A DNA stretch of 42,446 bases from Thermoflexus hugenholtzii JAD2 (lineage in GTDB: Bacteria; Chloroflexota; Chloroflexia; Chloroflexales; Roseiflexaceae), in assembly GCA_945881915.1 (NCBI GenBank), contig CAMCVW010000031.1, positions 1 through 42,446 of the forward strand, in the 5' to 3' direction. Positions 1-42,446 of this stretch are shown in pieces. The notes under the pieces were generated by a model. The model saw nothing but the letters and a program-made list of their open reading frames with translations. It was not told where the DNA came from and did no database searches. The translations under genes and the position numbers were made by a program. Position 1 is the stretch's first letter. Each line of letters starts with the position of its first letter.

Positions 1-237
1 GGCAAACCCGCCGATCAGATTGACCCCGCCTGGGATTTAATGCGCCTCGCCTGGGCATCGGTCGCAGATACCGCGGTTGCCCCGCTCCAGGACGTCCTCG
101 ACCTGCCCAATGCTGCCCGCATGAACTACCCCGGCCGGCTCGGCGGCAATTGGGGCTGGCGCTTCCGCTTCGAAGAACTCCAGCCGCACATCTGCGAGCG
201 CCTCCGAATGATGACGCGCACATTTGACCGGGCGTAA
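1..237 (+). CDS. malQ: 4-alpha-glucanotransferase, C-terminal end (partial)
   Basis: The frame is open from the first base of the window to a TAA at 235-237, giving 78 codons. The tail reads RLAWASVADTAVAPLQDVL, then an ARMNYPG segment and GNWGWRF. This is the closing part of GH77 amylomaltases, where the conserved C-terminal helices carry the 'SVADTAI.P.QD.L.L...ARMN.PG' pattern. The family transfers maltooligosaccharide chains between glucans in the cytoplasm. The catalytic residues lie upstream of the window, so activity cannot be judged. The gene is followed directly by the heptad repeat block, with no obvious terminator hairpin first. Confidence 0.85.
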   Translation, partial: GKPADQIDPAWDLMRLAWASVADTAVAPLQDVLDLPNAARMNYPGRLGGNWGWRFRFEELQPHICERLRMMTRTFDRA

Positions 238-240
238 ATA

Positions 241-690
241 GAGAGTAGTGAGTAGGGAGTAATGAGTAGTTTTCAGTTTTCAGTTATCAGTTGTCAGACA
301 CGGCATCTGGAGGTTTTTTCGGGGTACGGTCGCGCAGAGACGCAGGGGCAGGGAGTAATGAGTAGCGCGTAATGAGTAGTTTTCAATGATCAGGTTTCAG
401 TGATGAGTTATCAGACACGGCATCTGGAGGTTTGTTAGGGATGCGGTCACGCTGAGACGCAGCGGCAGGGAGTAATGAGTAGCGTGTAATGAGTAGTTTT
501 CAGTGTCAGGTTTCAGTGATTCGTTGTCAGACACGGCATCTGGAGTTTTTTTTAGGATGTGGGCGCGCTGAGACGCAGGGGCAGGGAGTAATGAGTAGTT
601 TTCAGTGATCAGGTTTCAGTGATGAGTTATCAGACACGGCATCTAGAGGTTTGTTTGGTATACGGTCACGCTGAGACGGGGGAATTAATA
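241..690. repeat. Tandem block of ~117/103-bp units made of degenerate 7-mers
   Basis: The marker CAGACACGGCATCT recurs at 295, 412, 528 and 631, so the steps are 117, 116 and 103 bp. Each unit divides into 7-mers such as GGGAGTA, ATGAGTA, GCGCGTA, ATGAGTA, GTTTTCA, GTGATCA, GGTTTCA, GTTATCA, then GACACGG and CATCTGG. A less repetitive part follows, ending ACGCTGAGACGCAG. The short step (103) lacks exactly two 7-mers (14 bp), as expected if units gain and lose whole heptads. No protein-coding frame is evident. The most similar block elsewhere in the window is at 2821-2940. Confidence 0.9.
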
Positions 691-931
691 CACTCTTCTT
701 CAAACCATCATGATGCATAATAGGCTACAGAAGCTTCTCCCTATCATTATATAAAATCATCAATACTTCCCGTCCAGAATAATTTGTGCGACACCATGGG
801 AGGACCACACATGCCTCACAGCATTTGAATCTCCCAACCGACAATGCCAAGCATGATAGAATCAAAAACCAGCAACGCACCAATCCATTTCATCGCGCCG
901 CAAATCCCCCCACACAAAAGGTGAGGTATAC
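691..931. other. Intergenic spacer upstream of the dehydrogenase
   Basis: No gene is seen here. The stretch is richer in A+T than its surroundings and carries the leader of the dehydrogenase gene. An extended -10 candidate (TGA then TAGAAT) lies at 854-862 without a matching -35. The AAAGGTGAG ribosome binding site lies at 917-925. Confidence 0.5.
854..862 (+). promoter_or_regulatory. Possible extended -10 promoter element
   Basis: TGATAGAAT matches the extended -10 form TGnTATAAT with one change. It sits about 70 bp before the ATG at 932. No good -35 is visible at 16-18 bp, so this is only a candidate. Confidence 0.3.
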
Positions 932-1963
932 ATGCCCCATACCATGAAGCGCATCGCGATTACCGGCGTCGAGCAAACTACGCTATTGGATGTGCCAATC
1001 CCCCAACCTATGCAAAATTGGGTATTGGTCAAAGTCCATGCCATCCCGCTGTGCACCGAGTACAAAAACTGGCTCAACGGCAGTGAATACCACGGACATG
1101 AAGCCGCCGGTGAAGTCGTCATGGTCGCCCAACCAGGCAAAGTCAACGTCGGCGACCGCGTCGTGGTAATGGCCGGTGCTCCGTGTGGCAAATGTGCGCT
1201 CTGCATCTCGGGCGAATACATCCATTGTCAACATATGCACGACCCGGCTGAATTTACCGGCGTGGCCTATGGCGGCGATACCCACGTGCAGTACCTCCTC
1301 AAACAAGATTGGCTCCTCGTACCAATCCCCGATGGGATGTCATACACCCGGGCAGCTCTGGCGTGCTGTGGGATGGGACCTACCTTTGGGGCACTCGAAA
1401 ACATGCAGGTCTCGGCTACTGACACCGTGTTGATTACCGGCGGCGGGGCAGTGGGGCTCGGCGGTGTCATCAACGCCAAATTCCGTGGAGCACGCACCAT
1501 CCTCATCGAACAAGTCCCCTACCGCCAGCAAAAAGCCCGCGAATTGGGCGCAGACCTCGTGTTGTCACCACTCGATCCCGACATCCGCACCAAAATCATG
1601 GAATATGCCGATATGCGCGGCGTCGATGCCTGCCTCGAGACCTCGGGCAATGTCGTGGCCCAACGGTTGTGTATCGACATGGTGCGCCGGCGTGGCCAAA
1701 TCTCGCTGGTCGGTGAATGTGGCAATGATTTGGCCATCCAAGCCAGCAATGACTTTATCCGCAAAGGGATTAGTTTACAGGGACAATGGCATTACAATTT
1801 AAACGGGGCACACAAGTTGATGCAGGTCATTCGAAATTCGCCAGTTGCAGAACAGCTCATCACGCACGTTTTTCCCATCAACGAAATCCAACAAGCATTC
1901 GCAACCTGTGCGTCGCAGGAATGTGGCAAGGTGATGATTTTGCCATGGCAAGGAGTCGACTAA
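932..1963 (+). CDS. Zinc-dependent alcohol dehydrogenase family (MDR) protein
   Basis: 343 residues, the normal size for medium-chain dehydrogenases. Cys41 and the GHE motif at 55-57 give the catalytic zinc site. Cys85, Cys88, Cys91 and Cys99 form the structural zinc lobe. A Rossmann motif GGGAVGLGG near 169-177 binds NAD(P). The start follows AAAGGTGAG with 6 bp spacing. The stop overlaps the start of the next gene (TAATG at 1961-1965), so the two are translationally coupled. The partner is a sugar-phosphate isomerase-like protein, which suggests oxidation of a polyol or sugar, as with sorbitol- or threonine-dehydrogenase-like members. The substrate cannot be read from the sequence. Confidence 0.85.
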   Translation: MPHTMKRIAITGVEQTTLLDVPIPQPMQNWVLVKVHAIPLCTEYKNWLNGSEYHGHEAAGEVVMVAQPGKVNVGDRVVVMAGAPCGKCALCISGEYIHCQHMHDPAEFTGVAYGGDTHVQYLLKQDWLLVPIPDGMSYTRAALACCGMGPTFGALENMQVSATDTVLITGGGAVGLGGVINAKFRGARTILIEQVPYRQQKARELGADLVLSPLDPDIRTKIMEYADMRGVDACLETSGNVVAQRLCIDMVRRRGQISLVGECGNDLAIQASNDFIRKGISLQGQWHYNLNGAHKLMQVIRNSPVAEQLITHVFPINEIQQAFATCASQECGKVMILPWQGVD

Positions 1964-2820
1964 TGAGACTCGGTGGACCAATTTTTCAACCATTCACCAC
2001 CATCGCCGCAGAAGTGGCCTTGCACCAACAACTGGGATTTGGGGCAGCCTACTGCAGGTATATCGAAGACAAAACCCAACGCAGCACATACAAGCAGGCA
2101 TTTGCCGAAGCCGATATCGTACTGGCCGAATTTGGCGCTTATTGTATTAATATCCTCGATACCAATCCCGTGTTACGCCAAAAAAACATTGACGAAATCA
2201 GTCGCCGGCTTGAATATGCCGACGAAATGGCAGTGCGCTGCTGTGTCATGCATGGTGGCTCGGTCGAAACCGGCGATTGGGGTAATGCCAATCCGCTCAA
2301 CATGTCCGAAAAGAGTTTTTATGAGACGGTCACGGCCATCCAATCCATCCTTGACCGCACACAACCCACTTCCACCAAGCTCGTCATCGAAACCGAGTCG
2401 TATCTCTTGCCCGACGGCCCAGAAATCTATGCCCGCTTGATTGAAGCCGTCGACCGTCCCGGATTTGCAGTGCACCTTGATCCCGTCAATATCATCGCAA
2501 GTCCCAGAAGATTTTATTACAATGCCCAATTTATCAAAGAATGCTTCAGCATTCTCGGTCCGTGGATTGTGAGTTGTCATGCCAAAGACCTCAATATGCC
2601 CGCCAAACATGCCACCATCCAGATAAACGAAACGTTTATCGGCGATGGCATGCTCAACTACGCAACCTATCTCACTGAGATTGAAAAACTGAATCCGGCA
2701 CCCACCTTGATGATCGAACATCTCGACGAGCAGCAATTACACCAAGGGCTGGAGTTTATTTTTGCCCAAGCAGCTGCCATCGGCATCACGTTTGAGGGGG
2801 CTGAACGACGAAAAGCATAG
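1963..2820 (+). CDS. Sugar phosphate isomerase/epimerase-like TIM barrel protein
   Basis: 285 residues from the ATG at 1963, chosen because AAGGAG at 1949-1954 lies 8 bp upstream and the ATG overlaps the previous stop. The frame is open further upstream but has no better start. Features of the xylose isomerase-like/AP endonuclease 2 barrel (IolE/IolI type) are visible: VIETES, HLDPVN, SCHAKD and MIEHL supply the Glu, Asp, His and Glu metal ligands typical of this fold. MHGGSVETGDW is another strand end near the active site. Known members isomerise or epimerise keto-sugars or inosose. With the upstream dehydrogenase it probably forms a short oxidation/isomerisation pathway. The exact substrate is unknown. 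Confidence 0.8.
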   Translation: MRLGGPIFQPFTTIAAEVALHQQLGFGAAYCRYIEDKTQRSTYKQAFAEADIVLAEFGAYCINILDTNPVLRQKNIDEISRRLEYADEMAVRCCVMHGGSVETGDWGNANPLNMSEKSFYETVTAIQSILDRTQPTSTKLVIETESYLLPDGPEIYARLIEAVDRPGFAVHLDPVNIIASPRRFYYNAQFIKECFSILGPWIVSCHAKDLNMPAKHATIQINETFIGDGMLNYATYLTEIEKLNPAPTLMIEHLDEQQLHQGLEFIFAQAAAIGITFEGAERRKA

Positions 2821-2940
2821 ACGCAGGGGCAGGGAGCAATGAGTAGCGCGTAATGATTAGTTTTCAGTGATCAGTTTTCAGACAGGGCATCTAGAGGTTT
2901 GTTAGGGATACGGTCGCGCTGAGACGCAGGGGCGTCAGAG
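2821..2940. repeat. Dispersed copy of the heptad repeat (direct)
   Basis: This begins immediately after the stop codon of the previous gene. It reads as 7-mers GGGAGCA, ATGAGTA, GCGCGTA, ATGATTA, GTTTTCA, GTGATCA, GTTTTCA, GACAGGG, CATCTAG and AGGTTTG, then the same GCGCTGAGACGCAGGGGC tail as the block at 241-690. It is two heptads shorter than the 117-bp unit. The GGGAGCA heptad is the same 7-mer, in reverse complement, as the array at the end of the window. Confidence 0.85.
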
Positions 2941-3000: not shown

Positions 3001-3048
3001 GTGCACTCCTCACTGCTACCTGAAAACTACTAACTACTATCTGCTAAA
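3001..3048 (-). repeat. Inverted heptad element
   Basis: Read on the minus strand this gives TTTAGCA, GATAGTA, GTTAGTA, GTTTTCA, GGTAGCA, GTGAGGA: the same NNNNGTA/NNNNTCA heptads as the direct copy at 2821-2940, but inverted. Between the two copies lies about 60 bp (2941-3000) with no gene. Confidence 0.65.
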
Positions 3049-3075: not shown

Positions 3076-3114
3076 AAAAAGCCCCGGGAGCAGTGCGCTC
3101 CCGGGGCCATTTTT
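3076..3114. terminator. Bidirectional rho-independent terminator
   Basis: A 10-bp perfect stem GCCCCGGGAG/CTCCCGGGGC (3081-3090 and 3098-3107) has a 7-base loop. A5 precedes it (3076-3080) and T5 follows it at 3110-3114. It lies between the convergent isomerase gene and kdgK and can serve both strands. Confidence 0.85.
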
Positions 3115-22174: not shown

Positions 22175-22942
22175 ATGACAAAACATATTTTCCATCCGCG
22201 CCTGAAAAACATCGAACGCTACATCAGTGAGCACCGCCAAGTCAGCACGAGCGTACTCTGTACCACGTTTGACATCAGCGAAGCTACTGCGCGGCGTGAC
22301 CTCGATCAGCTTGCGGCGCAGGGAAGTATCATGCGGATTCATGGAGGCGCAGTCGCAGTCAGTGCGGCCCCACCGGAGCCTCCTGTGTTGCAACGTAGTC
22401 AATGGCAACAAGTCGAAAAGCGACGGATTGCGCAAGCGGCCGCCAGCCTCATTGACGCAGGCGACACGGTGTTTATTAGTAGTGGCACGACTGCTTTGGC
22501 GGTCGCACAATGCATTCGCAACCGGGACGACATCACGGTCGTGACCAATTCTTTGCCCGTACTGAATTGTTTAGCCGACAGTAATCTCGATGTCATCGCC
22601 TTAGGCGGGATGTTTCGCCAGAGTGAATCATCGTTTATTGGGCATTTGGCAATACAGAGCCTGGCCGAGCTGCGTATGACCAAGATTATTTTTGGGATTC
22701 GCGGGATAGATGTGGTGCAAGGGTTGACCAACGATTTTTTACCCGAAACCATGACCGATCGCGCTATCCTGAGTGCAGGTAAGCATGTCATCATCGTGGC
22801 CGACCATACCAAGATCGGCCGGAGCGCACCAGCCTTTGTGGCACCACTCAGCGCTGTGGACATCTTGGTGACGGACAGTAATGCCGATAGCACGCTGTGT
22901 CAAGCGATTGCCTCCATTGGGGTCCGTGTCATTCAAGCGTAG
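22175..22942 (+). CDS. DeoR-family transcriptional regulator
   Basis: 255 residues, typical length. The N-terminal winged helix-turn-helix at about 18-55 reads VSTSVLCTTFDISEATARRD followed by L.QLAAQGSIMRIHGGA, the DeoR signature. The C-terminal DeoRC domain has DAGDTVFISSGTTALAVA, VVTNSLPVLN and VIALGGMFR, the sugar-phosphate sensor. The start ATG 22175 has a poor ribosome site; the frame is open upstream inside the previous gene without family similarity. It lies 32 bp after the dioxygenase. Expected ligand: a phosphorylated sugar produced by the operon. Probable operators are the TCACATTC repeats at the promoter. Confidence 0.92.
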   Translation: MTKHIFHPRLKNIERYISEHRQVSTSVLCTTFDISEATARRDLDQLAAQGSIMRIHGGAVAVSAAPPEPPVLQRSQWQQVEKRRIAQAAASLIDAGDTVFISSGTTALAVAQCIRNRDDITVVTNSLPVLNCLADSNLDVIALGGMFRQSESSFIGHLAIQSLAELRMTKIIFGIRGIDVVQGLTNDFLPETMTDRAILSAGKHVIIVADHTKIGRSAPAFVAPLSAVDILVTDSNADSTLCQAIASIGVRVIQA

Positions 22943-22973
22943 CAATCATATAATGTATATCAAAGGATTCTCC

Positions 22974-24005
22974 ATGACACACCTAGGGATGCACACGTGG
23001 AATGAACTCTGTTCGCAACCAGATGCGTGGCGGGCGGCACTTGATGTCGTGATTGGTCAGGCGCCGAATATTGCTGCTCATCGGGCCTTGACCCACGCCA
23101 GTCACATCATATGGAGCGGCTGTGGCTCACCCTACTACCTTGCCGTTGCAGCCGCGCGCATTACCCAACAATACGACGCGCGCCCCGGCTATGCCGTACC
23201 TGCCTCAGAATTATGGCTGAATCCGCAAGCGTGTATCCCCCGTGATGCCACGCCTACATTGATTCTGCTCAGCCGCTCAGGGAGTACCACCGAAGTACTA
23301 CGGGCAGCGACGCAATTCCGCCAGAGTGCACCCAATGGCCACATCATCACCATCACCTGCTACCCCGACCGCCCATTGGCGAGCGTGGGTGACATCAACA
23401 TCATCTTACCGTCAGGGCAAGAGACCAGTTTGGCCCAAACTCGGGCCTTTACGGTGATGCAAATGGCCGCATTAGGGGTAATTTGGCTCCTGAGTGGCCG
23501 GTCATTGACCGAATTACGGAGCTTGCCCGATATTGCAGCTGATGTAATGCAACGGTATCAAAACCAATGCCTCGACATTGGCAAAAACCCCCACTATCAC
23601 AGCTTTTATTTCTTGGGGAGTGGCTATCGCTATGGCCTTGCCAGCGAAGCCAGCCTCAAGATGAAAGAAATGTCGCTTACGATTAGCGAACCATTTCACC
23701 ATATGGAGTTCCGCCATGGGCCACAATCAATGGTCGATGCGCATTCATTGGTAATTGGGATTGGATCTAAAGAGATGCAAGCCACAGAACAAGCGGTCTT
23801 GGCTGATATGCGCAAACTGGGTGGTCAAACCTTGGCGATTGGGCCGACCAGCGATTGCGACATGCACTGGGAATCGACGATTGATGATGCCCTTCAAGGC
23901 ATTATTGCGTTGCCGCTGTTACAAACTATCGCCTACGCACGGGCTACCTCACGGGGACTTGACCCGGACAATCCGCACAATCTCAATGCGGTGGTCGTGC
24001 TTTAG
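22974..24005 (+). CDS. SIS-domain sugar isomerase/deaminase (GlmS C-domain / AgaS / FrlB-like)
   Basis: 343 residues with two SIS domains. SGCGSPYYLA (about 48-57) and LLSRSGSTTEV mark the first phosphosugar site; LGSGYRYGLASEASLKMKEM marks the second. SEPFHHMEFRHGP and the closing DPDNPHNLNAV are the GlmS-type C-terminal blocks. It therefore handles an amino- or keto-hexose phosphate (isomerisation, deamination or deglycation). The glutaminase domain of GlmS is absent. AAAGGA precedes the ATG at 22974. A TATAAT at 22949-22954 resembles that of the operon promoter, but its -35 is poor. Confidence 0.85.
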   Translation: MTHLGMHTWNELCSQPDAWRAALDVVIGQAPNIAAHRALTHASHIIWSGCGSPYYLAVAAARITQQYDARPGYAVPASELWLNPQACIPRDATPTLILLSRSGSTTEVLRAATQFRQSAPNGHIITITCYPDRPLASVGDINIILPSGQETSLAQTRAFTVMQMAALGVIWLLSGRSLTELRSLPDIAADVMQRYQNQCLDIGKNPHYHSFYFLGSGYRYGLASEASLKMKEMSLTISEPFHHMEFRHGPQSMVDAHSLVIGIGSKEMQATEQAVLADMRKLGGQTLAIGPTSDCDMHWESTIDDALQGIIALPLLQTIAYARATSRGLDPDNPHNLNAVVVL

Positions 24006-24010
24006 CGGAA

Positions 24011-24031
24011 CGAATCATCAGGGATGATTCG
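24011..24031 (+). other. Intercistronic stem-loop after the SIS gene
   Basis: A 9-bp perfect stem CGAATCATC/GATGATTCG has an AGG triloop and no T-tract. It is 5 bp past the SIS stop and 49 bp before the binding-protein start. It could protect mRNA ends or act as an operator. Confidence 0.6.
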
Positions 24032-24080
24032 TGACCCATATCGTGAGTCGCAATGTCGCGTCTGTACATGAGGAGGTTGT

Positions 24081-25391
24081 ATGCGTTCCTATTCACCCGT
24101 TCGCTGGCTTGGACTTGTCATTGCACTGTTGTTGGCGAGTTGTGGCGCTGCCGCACCAGCCGCATCCGTAGCCGAACAAGTCACCATTCGCATGTGGTCG
24201 CACCAAAACTCGGCCTTCAACAAGGTCAACCAAGAACTCATTGACCAATTCATGAAGGAAAACCCCAACATCATCGTCAAGTACGAGACCTTCCCGTACG
24301 ACCAATTCATCCAAACCTTGCAAACCTCGATGCCTGCCGGTACCGAAGCCGATGTCATCGAAATGTTCGGTTCATGGGTCTGCAATTATGCCACTGGTGG
24401 TCGCCTCCAAGAAACTCCGGCTGAAGTGATGAGTTACGCCAAAGCCCAAGAGATTTTCTATAAGGCACCGCTCGACGGCTACTATTGCGATGGCAAGCTG
24501 TACGGCATGCCGAACGAATACAACTTAGAGTACAGTGGTGCACTCGTAAATCCTGCATTGTATGAGGCTGCCGGAATTGCATTCCCACCCGAATACAAAG
24601 ACTTTAACGGTCTCATCGCAGATGCCAAAAAAATGTCCGCATTTAGTGGCGAAACGATGACAACTGCAGGATTCCACTACACTGGTGGTGATGCACTAGG
24701 GTTTATCATGCTAGGCGGTATTCTCGAACAAGGTGGGAATTATTTCGCCGACGATGGTAAGCACTTTAACTTCGAAAGCGAAGAAGCACTCAACGTGGTC
24801 CGTACGTTGACACGCTACGCCCAAGACGACAAAGTCATCGACGCAACGCTCTTTTCAGGGGACAATGGACTTCCAGGCGCGTTTTTCAAAGGTCAAGTCG
24901 GTATTGCATACATCGGGCCATGGGCTGCTGGTGTTGGCAAAGTCGATTTCCCTGATGTGAAATTCGAATACGTTGCGCTACCACCAATGTTTGGGAGCGA
25001 ATACAAGTTCGCTGCCGATGCTGGTTGGGGTAAAGTCGTTTCGACAAACACCAAGCACAGCAAAGAAGCGTGGATGTTACAGAACTACTTGACCGTCAAC
25101 CGGGCCAATGCGTTGAAGTTCAATCAAATTTCAGGAACGGTACCAGCGCTCAAAGAATTGGTTGATAATCCAGCCGAAATTCTTGCCGTTGCACCGTACA
25201 TGCAACCCATCCTGAAGTTACTCCCGCATGGTCAATACTTGGGGAACGTCACAGACCGCGATCAACTTTTTTACGAAATTATCGCAAAAAACTTGACAGA
25301 CGCCATCAACGGATCGGTGACGCCAGAGCAAGCCGCAGCAAACATGAATGCTGAAGCCAATGCAATGGTTGACAGTAAAGCAAGCAAGTAA
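24081..25391 (+). CDS. ABC sugar-transport substrate-binding lipoprotein (CUT1)
   Basis: 436 residues. The signal peptide ends in the lipobox LAS-Cys21, so the protein is acylated and tethered outside the membrane. The mature part is a family 1 solute-binding protein: VTIRMWSHQNSAFNKVNQEL, FMKENPNIIVKYE, DVIEMFGSW and GVGKVDFPDV. AGGAGG lies 4 bp upstream. It is the receptor of the transporter whose two permeases follow; the cargo is probably an oligosaccharide or glycoside later hydrolysed by the GH4 enzymes. A strong intercistronic hairpin follows it. Confidence 0.94.
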   Translation: MRSYSPVRWLGLVIALLLASCGAAAPAASVAEQVTIRMWSHQNSAFNKVNQELIDQFMKENPNIIVKYETFPYDQFIQTLQTSMPAGTEADVIEMFGSWVCNYATGGRLQETPAEVMSYAKAQEIFYKAPLDGYYCDGKLYGMPNEYNLEYSGALVNPALYEAAGIAFPPEYKDFNGLIADAKKMSAFSGETMTTAGFHYTGGDALGFIMLGGILEQGGNYFADDGKHFNFESEEALNVVRTLTRYAQDDKVIDATLFSGDNGLPGAFFKGQVGIAYIGPWAAGVGKVDFPDVKFEYVALPPMFGSEYKFAADAGWGKVVSTNTKHSKEAWMLQNYLTVNRANALKFNQISGTVPALKELVDNPAEILAVAPYMQPILKLLPHGQYLGNVTDRDQLFYEIIAKNLTDAINGSVTPEQAAANMNAEANAMVDSKASK

Positions 25392-25401
25392 CTCTTCAAA
25401 G

Positions 25402-25433
25402 CATGCGCGTCACCGGTTACGGTGACGCGCATG
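25402..25433 (+). other. Strong intercistronic stem-loop between binding protein and permease
   Basis: A 14-bp perfect stem, CATGCGCGTCACCG with CGGTGACGCGCATG, has a GTTA loop and no T-tract. It sits between the binding-protein stop and the first permease. Such hairpins often stabilise the upstream message, so that the binding protein is made in excess of the permeases. Confidence 0.75.
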
Positions 25434-25454
25434 TTCAATAAAGGATGCATTGCC

Positions 25455-26408
25455 ATGGCCTCACCTGGCTCGGTTCGACAATCACAACGCAGATTTGCCT
25501 ATAGTGTCATGACTCCCATCATGCTCTATTTAATGCTATTCAGTTTAATCCCCCTCATATGGGCGATTATTCTGGGCTTCTTCGATTACTCACCAGCACG
25601 GGTAGGGGGCACACTATTTGGATTAGGGGATTCAAATCCTTTTATCGGCATCAAAAATTATGTGGATTTGTTTAGCGATAGTCAACCTGCAACCGTATTT
25701 CGCAAATCAGTTGTCAATACCTTTTTGTTTACGTTTTTGATCGTACCGCTCAACCTCGCCATCACCCTCCCCCTCGCAATTATCATCGAACGCAGTCATA
25801 CGCGGGTCAAAGGTTTTTTCCGGGCAGTTTACTTCTTACCCACCGTTACATCGGCAGTAGCTGTTGCATTGATTTGGGGTGCGATTTACAATCCGCAAGC
25901 AGGATTGCTCAGTGATCTGATTCGCACCATTGGTTTGACCCCGCCCAAAGCGTGGTTGAGTGATCCTCAAGCCTTTGTAATGGGAATCCCCTTGGCAATG
26001 TTAGCCTTGATTGTCGCCCATTTATGGCAAGATTTTGGCTATAATTTGGTTATTTTTATTGCGGCTCTGCAAGGCATTCCGCAAAATTTACGTGATGCGG
26101 CAAAGGTTGATGGTGCCAACGAACAACAAATGTTTTGGTATGTCACGTTACCGTTATTACAACCAACCTTGCTATTTGTCTGTGTAATGACGATTTTGTC
26201 GTCGCTCCAGATGTTTATATTGGCGCAAGTGATGACGAAGGGCGGCCCGCGCGAGCAGACACAGACAATTTTGATGAGTATTTATCAAAACGCGTTTCGT
26301 TACCAAAACATGGGCTGGGCTGCAGCCATGTCGTTTGTATTGTTCGGCATCATTATGGTGTTCACCCTCCTGCAGTTTCGTTTTTTGCGTAGTGATTGGG
26401 AGTACTAA
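25455..26408 (+). CDS. ABC sugar permease (MalF-like, CUT1)
   Basis: 317 residues with six transmembrane segments. The cytoplasmic EAA loop reads AALQGIPQNLRDAAKVDGAN, with the conserved G at the expected distance from the C-terminus. The start is ATG 25455, 9 bp after AAAGGA; the longer frame from 25422 would begin inside the hairpin. A few bases separate it from the second permease. The reading frame is visibly richer in A/T at third positions than the xyl or trp genes, a hint of different history, though not measured. Confidence 0.92.
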   Translation: MASPGSVRQSQRRFAYSVMTPIMLYLMLFSLIPLIWAIILGFFDYSPARVGGTLFGLGDSNPFIGIKNYVDLFSDSQPATVFRKSVVNTFLFTFLIVPLNLAITLPLAIIIERSHTRVKGFFRAVYFLPTVTSAVAVALIWGAIYNPQAGLLSDLIRTIGLTPPKAWLSDPQAFVMGIPLAMLALIVAHLWQDFGYNLVIFIAALQGIPQNLRDAAKVDGANEQQMFWYVTLPLLQPTLLFVCVMTILSSLQMFILAQVMTKGGPREQTQTILMSIYQNAFRYQNMGWAAAMSFVLFGIIMVFTLLQFRFLRSDWEY

Positions 26409-26411
26409 GAT

Positions 26412-27260
26412 ATGGTTGCACAATCACGTACGAACTATTCATATCTCATTGGTGCAGTCCTGCGCTATGCCGTACTCGGAATTGGCTTGAGTGTCACATT
26501 ACTGCCATTTGTGTATGTCATTTTGTCTTCTCTCAAAACTCCTAGTGAGATTATTCAGATTCCACCTACGTTATTCCCCAAAGTACCCACATGGCAAAAC
26601 TACACCACGATTTTCAACGACCCCAAAGTACCCCTCGGGTTGTTTTTCTTTAATTCGAGCTTCGTGGCGATTGCGCGGGTAGCGGTAACCTTGTTTACCA
26701 GTTCCCTCGCCGGGTATATTTTTGCACGCTACGAGTTTGGCGGCAAAGGACTGATGTTTGCCGTTATTATGGCGCAAATCATGATTCCCTTCCAGATGAT
26801 TATGATTCCGCTCTATTTGATCCTCGTCAAATTACAGCTCATCGATACCTTGTGGGGGCTCATCATTCCAGCCATGATAGACGCCTTTGGGATTTTTATG
26901 ATGCGTCAATTCATCGAAGGTATCCCTCGCGAGCTGATTGATGCGGGGAGAATGGACGGTGCAAGCGAGTTCCAAATCTATCGGAGTTTAATTCTCCCTC
27001 AATTAAGTGCACCATTAGCAACATTGGGGATTTTCACCTTTATGGCAACCTGGAACGATTACCTGTGGCCACTCATTGTGATTACCACCCATGAAAAACG
27101 CACGCTCCCACTCCTCCTGACCTGGTATAGCAGTAATCATGGCTCACGCCCCAGCCTTACCATGGCGGCGTCAGTGATTGTGCTCATACCAATTGTATTG
27201 ATTTATATCTTGTTTCAACGGCAGATTGTCGCCAACGCTGCTACCACGGGATTCAAGTAA
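26412..27260 (+). CDS. ABC sugar permease (MalG-like, CUT1)
   Basis: 282 residues with six transmembrane segments. The EAA loop reads [19 protein letters not shown], and the C-terminus [15 protein letters not shown] is standard for the MalG branch (ends in G-x-K). It pairs with the MalF-like permease 3 bp upstream. No ATP-binding subunit is encoded in the operon, so a shared MsmK/UgpC-type ATPase elsewhere in the genome is expected; this is common for CUT1 systems in Gram-positives. Confidence 0.93.
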
Positions 27261-27272
27261 GGAAATACACAA

Positions 27273-28598
27273 ATGGAATGCTATGTTTTAATCGGCGCAG
27301 GCAGTGCCTCTTTTACGCGAGGGTTACTGGCAGATTTGGTGTCGTCGCGACAGGTATGTGAAGTTCGTCTGGTCGATCCCAATCCCGAAGCGTTGCGCAC
27401 TGCTGAACGCCTGGCAACCAAAATGATTGCACAGACCAACGCACCCATCACCCTGCGTGCCAGCACGCAGCGGCGCGAAGTTCTCGTCGGCGCTACCGTC
27501 GTCATCTGTACGGTCGGTGTCGGTGGACGGCGTGCATGGGAACAAGATGTCTTCATCCCGCGGCAATTCGGTATATATATGCCCGTTGGCGACACGGTCG
27601 GACCCGGAGGCAGCTCACGGGCCATCCGGATGATACCGGCCATGGTGGCGATCGCTCAAGACGTTGCCACGCTCTGTCCTACTGCGCTTTTTTTCAATTA
27701 TTCAAACCCGATGGCGCCGATATGTCAGGCGATTACGCAAGCAGTGGGAATTCCCGTGATTGGACTCTGCCATGGGGTGCTCCACGTGATGCACTACCTC
27801 GCCGACACACTCAAACTCCCTTCTGCAACGATGACTGCGCAGTACGCGGGGTATAATCATCTCACCTGGATGACGGCTGTCGAAAGTGCTGGTGTCGACA
27901 TCTTGCCGGTGATGCACGCCTACGCGACGGCACAACGCGACATTCCCGTCACGTCTGCCCATCAAAATCGCTTCTCGTGGGAGTTGTTTGCACTGACGGG
28001 TGCATTCCCTGCAGTTCTCGATCGTCACGTGACGGAATTCTTCCCGCAGTTTTTTCGCTCAGGGCACTATTATGGGATGCGGCTGGGTGTGGATGCGTTT
28101 TCGTTCGAAGGAACAATTGCGGGCGGCGACGCAGAGTTTGCCGCGATGCATACCGATGCACTCGCCGCAGCACCACTGCCCGATCACTTGTTTGCGCGGG
28201 AGTCGGGTGAACACGAGCAAGTTGTCGAGATCGTCAGAACAATCAGAACACAATCTGCTGAGGTATATGCGGTCAATTTGCCGAACACGGGGCAAGTCCC
28301 CAACCTTCCACGCGGGGCGATTGTCGAAGCACCTGCGCAGATGCAAAACGGCGCGTTGACTCCCATCGTGCAGGCGCATCTCGGTATGGATGTGGCAGGC
28401 ATGCTCGCCTCACGCTACGCCTGGGTGAACACGATTGTCGAAGCAGCACTCACCCAAAATCGTGATGCATTTCTGCACGCCTTGATTATTGATGGCTCCG
28501 TCGCGTCGCTCGCAGATGTCAACACCATGGGCGCTGCATTGTGGGAACACACGACGAGTTATATAGACAACACGACAAACGGAAGAGGATCGCTATGA
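27273..28598 (+). CDS. GH4 family glycoside hydrolase (first of two)
   Basis: 441 residues. NAD-binding [12 protein letters not shown] at the N-terminus, then [35 protein letters not shown] and GLCHGV, which supplies the metal-binding Cys and substrate His region. A further His in FFRSGHYYG lies where the second metal ligand is usual. GH4 enzymes open glycosides by NAD-dependent oxidation-elimination at C3, with Mn2+. It is divergent from MelA and LplD types, so specificity is open (alpha-galactoside, alpha-glucoside or glucuronide). A GGAAA lies 10 bp before the ATG. It overlaps the next GH4 gene by 4 bp (ATGA). Confidence 0.87.
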
Positions 28599-42314: not shown

Positions 42315-42446
42315 GCTCCCTGCTCCCTGCTCCCTGCTCCCTGCTCCCTGCTCCCTGCTCCCTGCTCCCTGCTCCCTGCTCCCTGCTCCCTGCTCCCTGC
42401 TCCCTGCTCCCTGCTCCCTGCTCCCTGCTCCCTGCTCCCTGCTCCC
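42315..42446. repeat. (GCTCCCT)n heptamer tandem array, truncated by the window end
   Basis: GCTCCCT repeats without any visible error for 132 bp, almost 19 copies. The reverse complement unit is AGGGAGC, the same heptad as GGGAGCA in the dispersed repeat at 2829. Because 7 and 3 are co-prime, the array has a 21-bp coding period and contains no stop codon in any of the six frames. Perfect identity suggests recent expansion by slippage; copy number is likely unstable and may be mis-assembled. Confidence 0.95.

Follow-up and report, generated by a model that had tools for sequence, protein, structure and literature searches.

An intergenic array of degenerate heptanucleotide repeats downstream of malQ in a Roseiflexaceae genome

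A block of four long repeats lying immediately downstream of malQ, the 4-alpha-glucanotransferase gene, raises the question of whether the 7-bp order hidden in it is real, how it may have arisen, and whether it belongs to a known class of bacterial repeats. A preliminary description had reported copies spaced 117, 116 and 103 bp, each divisible into 7-mers, and had proposed growth in whole heptads followed by divergence rather than simple tandem duplication, as well as kinship with cyanobacterial heptamers. The window analyzed is the whole of contig C31 (42,446 nucleotides) from a 3.09-Mb genome (G000) that belongs to the same order as Chloroflexus aurantiacus. Its closest named relatives are Roseiflexaceae MAGs from lakes, UBA965 and RH-23may17-1005 among them. 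The block is intergenic, its first base lying 3 bp past the malQ stop codon and its last about 250 bp short of the next start, and is followed by genes for a zinc-binding dehydrogenase and a TIM-barrel isomerase-like protein and then by a convergent PfkB-family kinase gene. The sole match in an Rfam search of the window was a tRNA. Contig C56 opens with an exact copy of bases 1-149, which is an assembly overlap inside malQ.

The repeat search recovered the four copies at the reported spacings, the difference between 117 and 103 bp being exactly two heptads. Autocorrelation of 239-690 gave z=6.4 at lag 7 and z=8.1 at lag 14, values reached by none of 500 dinucleotide shuffles, while lag 21 was weakly raised (z=2.1) and all remaining lags up to 35 stayed below z=2; the periods detected in the block by Tandem Repeats Finder were 7, 14, 117 and 103. 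The excess of period 7 over shuffled sequence, and with it the 7-bp order of 240-690, is real, but it is limited to the 48-62 nt of each unit that form its heptad half. Taken apart from the linkers, the heptad parts gave z=9.3 (lag 7) and z=11.1 (lag 14), whereas the remaining ~50 nt, the linker, showed no period 7 in the same analysis (z=-1.5 at lag 7), so that divisibility into 7-mers holds for one half of each repeat and not for the other. In single units, lag-7 identity of the heptad part was 0.52-0.74 against 0.27 expected, with at most 2 of 2000 shuffles as high; since each heptad part alone exceeds at least 1998 of 2000 shuffles, the signal cannot be put down simply to a single accident copied four times.

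Nearly all heptads of the block fit A[A/G]NNNNN in one register (AGGGAGT, AATGAGT, AGTTTTC, AGTGATC and AGGTTTC are examples). The pattern is lost only in the second half of unit 3, the 116-bp unit, where the register breaks because one base is gone inside a heptad (AGTG-TCAGG). As 117 is not divisible by 7, the phase shifts from one unit to the next. The linker consists of 48-50 nt, with the sequence GACACGGCATCT...GACGCAG, plus a short GGGCAGG-like tail. A CRISPR array was ruled out, as the whole unit is conserved among copies, rather than a constant repeat being combined with unrelated spacers. The features are collected in Table 1, which also includes three that were absent from the preliminary description: a fifth unit, a set of inverted heptads and a perfect array at the contig end.

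Table 1. Location of the repeat units and associated features in the window.
Feature	Position	Strand	Details
malQ (4-alpha-glucanotransferase), 3' end	1-237	+	Pfam PF02446, E=2.8e-13; stop codon 235-237; contig starts inside malQ
Unit 1, heptad part	240-295	+	AGAGAGT AGTGAGT AGGGAGT AATGAGT AGTTTTC AGTTTTC AGTTATC AGTTGTC; lag-7 identity 0.74, 0/2000 shuffles as high
Linker 1	297-349	+	Without 7-bp order
Unit 2, heptad part	350-412	+	Nine heptads; register and lag-7 identity
Linker 2	414-466	+	Register analysis
Unit 3, heptad part	467-529	+	One base absent, register slips; register and lag-7 identity
Linker 3	530-582	+	Register analysis
Unit 4, heptad part	583-632	+	Shorter by two heptads; register and lag-7 identity
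Linker 4	633-680	+	Register analysis
Gene block between array copies	741-2820	+	190 bp upstream, zinc dehydrogenase (932-1963) and TIM-barrel isomerase-like gene; domain matches
Unit 5	2819-2933	+	Heptads 2833-2880, linker 2881-2933; immediately 3' of the isomerase-like gene stop codon, beyond two genes
Further heptads, inverted	3004-3047	-	GTAGTTA GTAGTTT TCAGGTA type; sequence; likewise in G006, G008 and G001
Terminator-like hairpin	3081-3107	+	Strong, GC-rich, between convergent genes
Perfect (GCTCCCT)x18.9 array	42315-42446	.	Contig end; Tandem Repeats Finder

Further copies of such heptads were found elsewhere in the genome, as many dispersed intergenic arrays, and among tandem repeats outside genes heptads predominate in the sampled G000 sequence. 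Exact lag-7 runs of at least 12 numbered 15 in 0.80 Mb, against 0 in three Markov resamples, and each of the other periods from 2 to 21 gave at most 4 exact runs in that same sequence. A larger census, covering 1.13 Mb (36% of the genome, in a sample weighted to long contigs or known heptad carriers, with ORFs called by a simple longest-ORF rule), assigned period 7 or 14 to 39 of the 53 tandem arrays outside ORFs. Within ORFs no period-7 array was present in this 1.13 Mb, and periods divisible by three were the most frequent ones there. Convergent genes flanked 15 of the 23 array-bearing intergenic regions of the census, where 21% would be expected from intergenic bp (p=7e-6), and a weaker preference of the same kind was seen in the related genome G007 (p=0.005 on distinct regions). 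The presence of stop codons in all frames was discarded as a property of the heptads: most families have one on at least one strand, but so do 48% of random heptads.

Comparison with related species indicates that the arrays differ by whole heptads. The heptad parts measure 62, 61, 48 and 48 nt in four G000 units, 34 nt in G006, 62 nt in G007 and 48 nt in G008; thus, over seven units from four species, all differences are 14-nt steps, save one 1-nt slip. At the orthologous site C7:658 of G000, with well conserved flanks, four AACTGAT are found against one in G007, this being the one case of a clean orthologous change in copy number, with a distant relative (median gene identity 76%). At C7:8256 both genomes have heptads and their sequences differ.

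These observations are best explained, with a probability that we would put at roughly three in four, by heptad-wise slippage and unequal recombination, divergence and unit duplication in weakly constrained 3' intergenic DNA, a history requiring no sequence-specific function. Short runs of 7-mers of two classes (AGTTATC/TAACTGA and AGTGAGT/GTAGTGA), set in one register, would have been the starting point, and replication slippage or unequal recombination would have lengthened or shortened them in steps of 7, mostly of 14 bp, with the heptads then diverging through point mutation. Later, a heptad run together with its ~50-nt non-heptad linker would have been tandemly duplicated as a unit of 103-117 bp, and the arrays may persist because they are located in near-neutral DNA under weak constraint immediately 3' of genes, for the most part where two genes converge. 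The growth in whole heptads previously proposed is supported by the 34/48/61/62-nt lengths and by the change from 1 to 4 AACTGAT; the claim that the block is not a simple tandem duplication stands for the heptad order, but not for the 103-117 bp spacing, which ordinary tandem duplication of the composite unit accounts for. The RNA fold of the block is unremarkable (z=-0.7), and no promoter-like or terminator-like site was found within it, so that nothing there points to a function. A counterpoint to pure slippage is that the two heptad classes share one register, something that slippage from a single seed would not need. Likewise, AG[G/T]NNNN, a pattern defined post hoc, fits 10 of the 11 heptad families in the sample against 41% expected at random, which hints at a sequence preference rather than pure slippage.

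This phase-locked AG[G/T] core, shared by most families, could also be read as the mark of candidate binding sites for a regulatory protein, either post-transcriptional or DNA-binding, in line with the published proposal for TAACTGA repeats located upstream of start codons in Beggiatoaceae (PMC4679880). However, the arrays described here are mostly past gene ends, in convergent regions and not beside start codons, and their presence is not conserved at orthologous sites, which makes such a role improbable.

That the composite unit occurs at two sites of the window, and also in three congeners, might suggest a degenerate mobile or dispersed element in which the 117-bp composite would be the unit and the heptads incidental. 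We consider this very improbable, given that full-length composite matches are restricted to this locus in each genome, other genomic matches corresponding to the heptad part, that the full composite is absent from unrelated loci in 60 relatives, and that no terminal inverted repeats are present at the block.

The two genes lying between array copies have a history of their own. Segment 741-2820 gives a continuous match of 86.6% to G009, including its non-coding part, next to a kinase gene with about 74% identity, and four-fold-site differences against G002, G005, G009 and G010 are 0.30-0.33 for the dehydrogenase and 0.58-0.60 for the kinase gene. Because identity is so far above that of the kinase gene, and four-fold sites behave likewise, these comparisons suggest that the segment, which is flanked by array copies (the distance to repeat units in G000 being 0 bp on one side and ~60 bp on the other), was probably exchanged laterally within the genus. 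In G006, malQ, the array, a spacer and the kinase gene are joined directly; the dehydrogenase and isomerase-like genes were not found in G006, G008 or G001, the last being only 60% complete. Both genes are beside the kinase gene in G005, G007, G009 and G010, while in G002 the order is split over two contigs. G007 carries a different version, of 3.5 kb in the aligned part, which is 89.9% identical to G002 and begins inside an acetyltransferase-like gene (named by eye). Outgroup synteny favored a simple deletion of the two genes, but the similarity of the segment is too high for vertical descent, and either loss in G006 or gain in G000 may account for the difference.

The proximity of the edges to repeat units, the junction in G006 and the excess of similarity to G009 over that of the kinase gene could all be accounted for if the array were a recombination platform, with heptads and 117-bp units providing homology for the loss or gain of genes between species, for instance 932-2820. 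More generally, gene-end heptad arrays could offer shared homology that lets diverged congeners swap or drop blocks such as 741-2820 without breaking genes. Both the local and the general form of this idea appear unlikely. In the 1.13 Mb, synteny breaks affected 4 of 9 array-bearing intergenic regions versus 47 of 256 (p=0.07; p=0.74 among convergent regions only), and no heptad array was seen by eye in the equivalent stretches of the donor-side relatives G009 and G002. Block exchange is moreover suggested elsewhere in the window. A role of the arrays as general synteny breakpoints is not supported, the relation being suggestive in 0.8 Mb and not significant in 1.13 Mb.

Two further observations concern exchange and the surroundings of these genes. 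Positions 22881-28598 show 86-88% identity to G005, G006, G009 and G010 and about 70% to G007 and G008, which suggests mosaic exchange in the genus. In two relatives, L009 and L011, positions 1-1000, upstream of the same dehydrogenase, contain a small REP-associated-transposase-like gene (recognized by eye) and GAGGCATGCCTC palindromic repeats.

With head-to-tail 7-bp units above chance, dispersed intergenic copies and whole-unit copy-number variation between relatives, the block belongs to the published class of intergenic heptanucleotide tandem repeats, of which it is a degenerate composite example. The suspected kinship with cyanobacterial heptamers is thus right as a class, but this class had already been published (PMC4679880, PMC6749651). 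Direct TAACTGA repeats have been reported from Beggiatoaceae, Cyanobacteria and Bacteroidetes (MacGregor, 2015; PMC4679880), and the arrays of G000 resemble them in the heptad itself (TCAGTTA is its reverse complement), in being intergenic and mixed with related heptads, and in their species-specific copy number and 7-nt indels. They differ in having a Chloroflexota host and in favoring convergent 3' ends, not start codons; in addition, the TAACTGA of the block is single and surrounded by TCAGTTT/TCAGTTG variants, with no two consecutive exact copies there, such copies being present elsewhere in G000 (e.g. C6:45655 and C7:658). The (GATAGRA)n satellites of C. aurantiacus (PMC6749651) are likewise heptamer-derived tandem arrays, many per genome, in the same phylum; their heptamer is different, and they are not known to include a composite heptad-linker unit. 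Cyanobacterial heptanucleotide (STRR-type) and Nostoc/Xanthomonas GGGNATC repeats (PMC4692102) share with the block a 7-bp unit, an intergenic and dispersed location and a variable copy number. Unlike the GGGNATC heptamers, which can form G-quadruplexes, block heptads rarely have GGG and are mostly without quadruplex G-tracts, which do occur in the contig-end array, (AGGGAGC)n, and the published G-rich heptamers prefer aligned genes whereas G000 arrays prefer convergent ones.

These results extend TAACTGA-type heptamers to freshwater Chloroflexota, a little-studied lineage, and supply several related species for tracking length changes by whole heptads. They also bear on why several groups of bacteria that are not related to each other favor repeats of seven bases; according to work cited in PMC4692102, period seven may be connected with the length of DNA that the polymerase holds. 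Three exact GCTCCCT units are found elsewhere in the genome only at C12:76959-77042, and the position of the perfect array at the contig end therefore suggests that heptamer arrays may cause assembly breaks, a warning for the contigs of these genomes. Within the phylum, three consecutive TCAGTTN were present in 21 of 301 Chloroflexota genomes (species sampled), corresponding to 13 of 179 genera, and the reversed-pattern control, GACTNTTGACTNTTGACT, gave no match in most genomes. Genus g11 (G027, G030, G036, G039, G042 and G044) departs most from this: GACTNTTGACTNTTGACT is itself enriched there and apparently represents a separate heptamer family.
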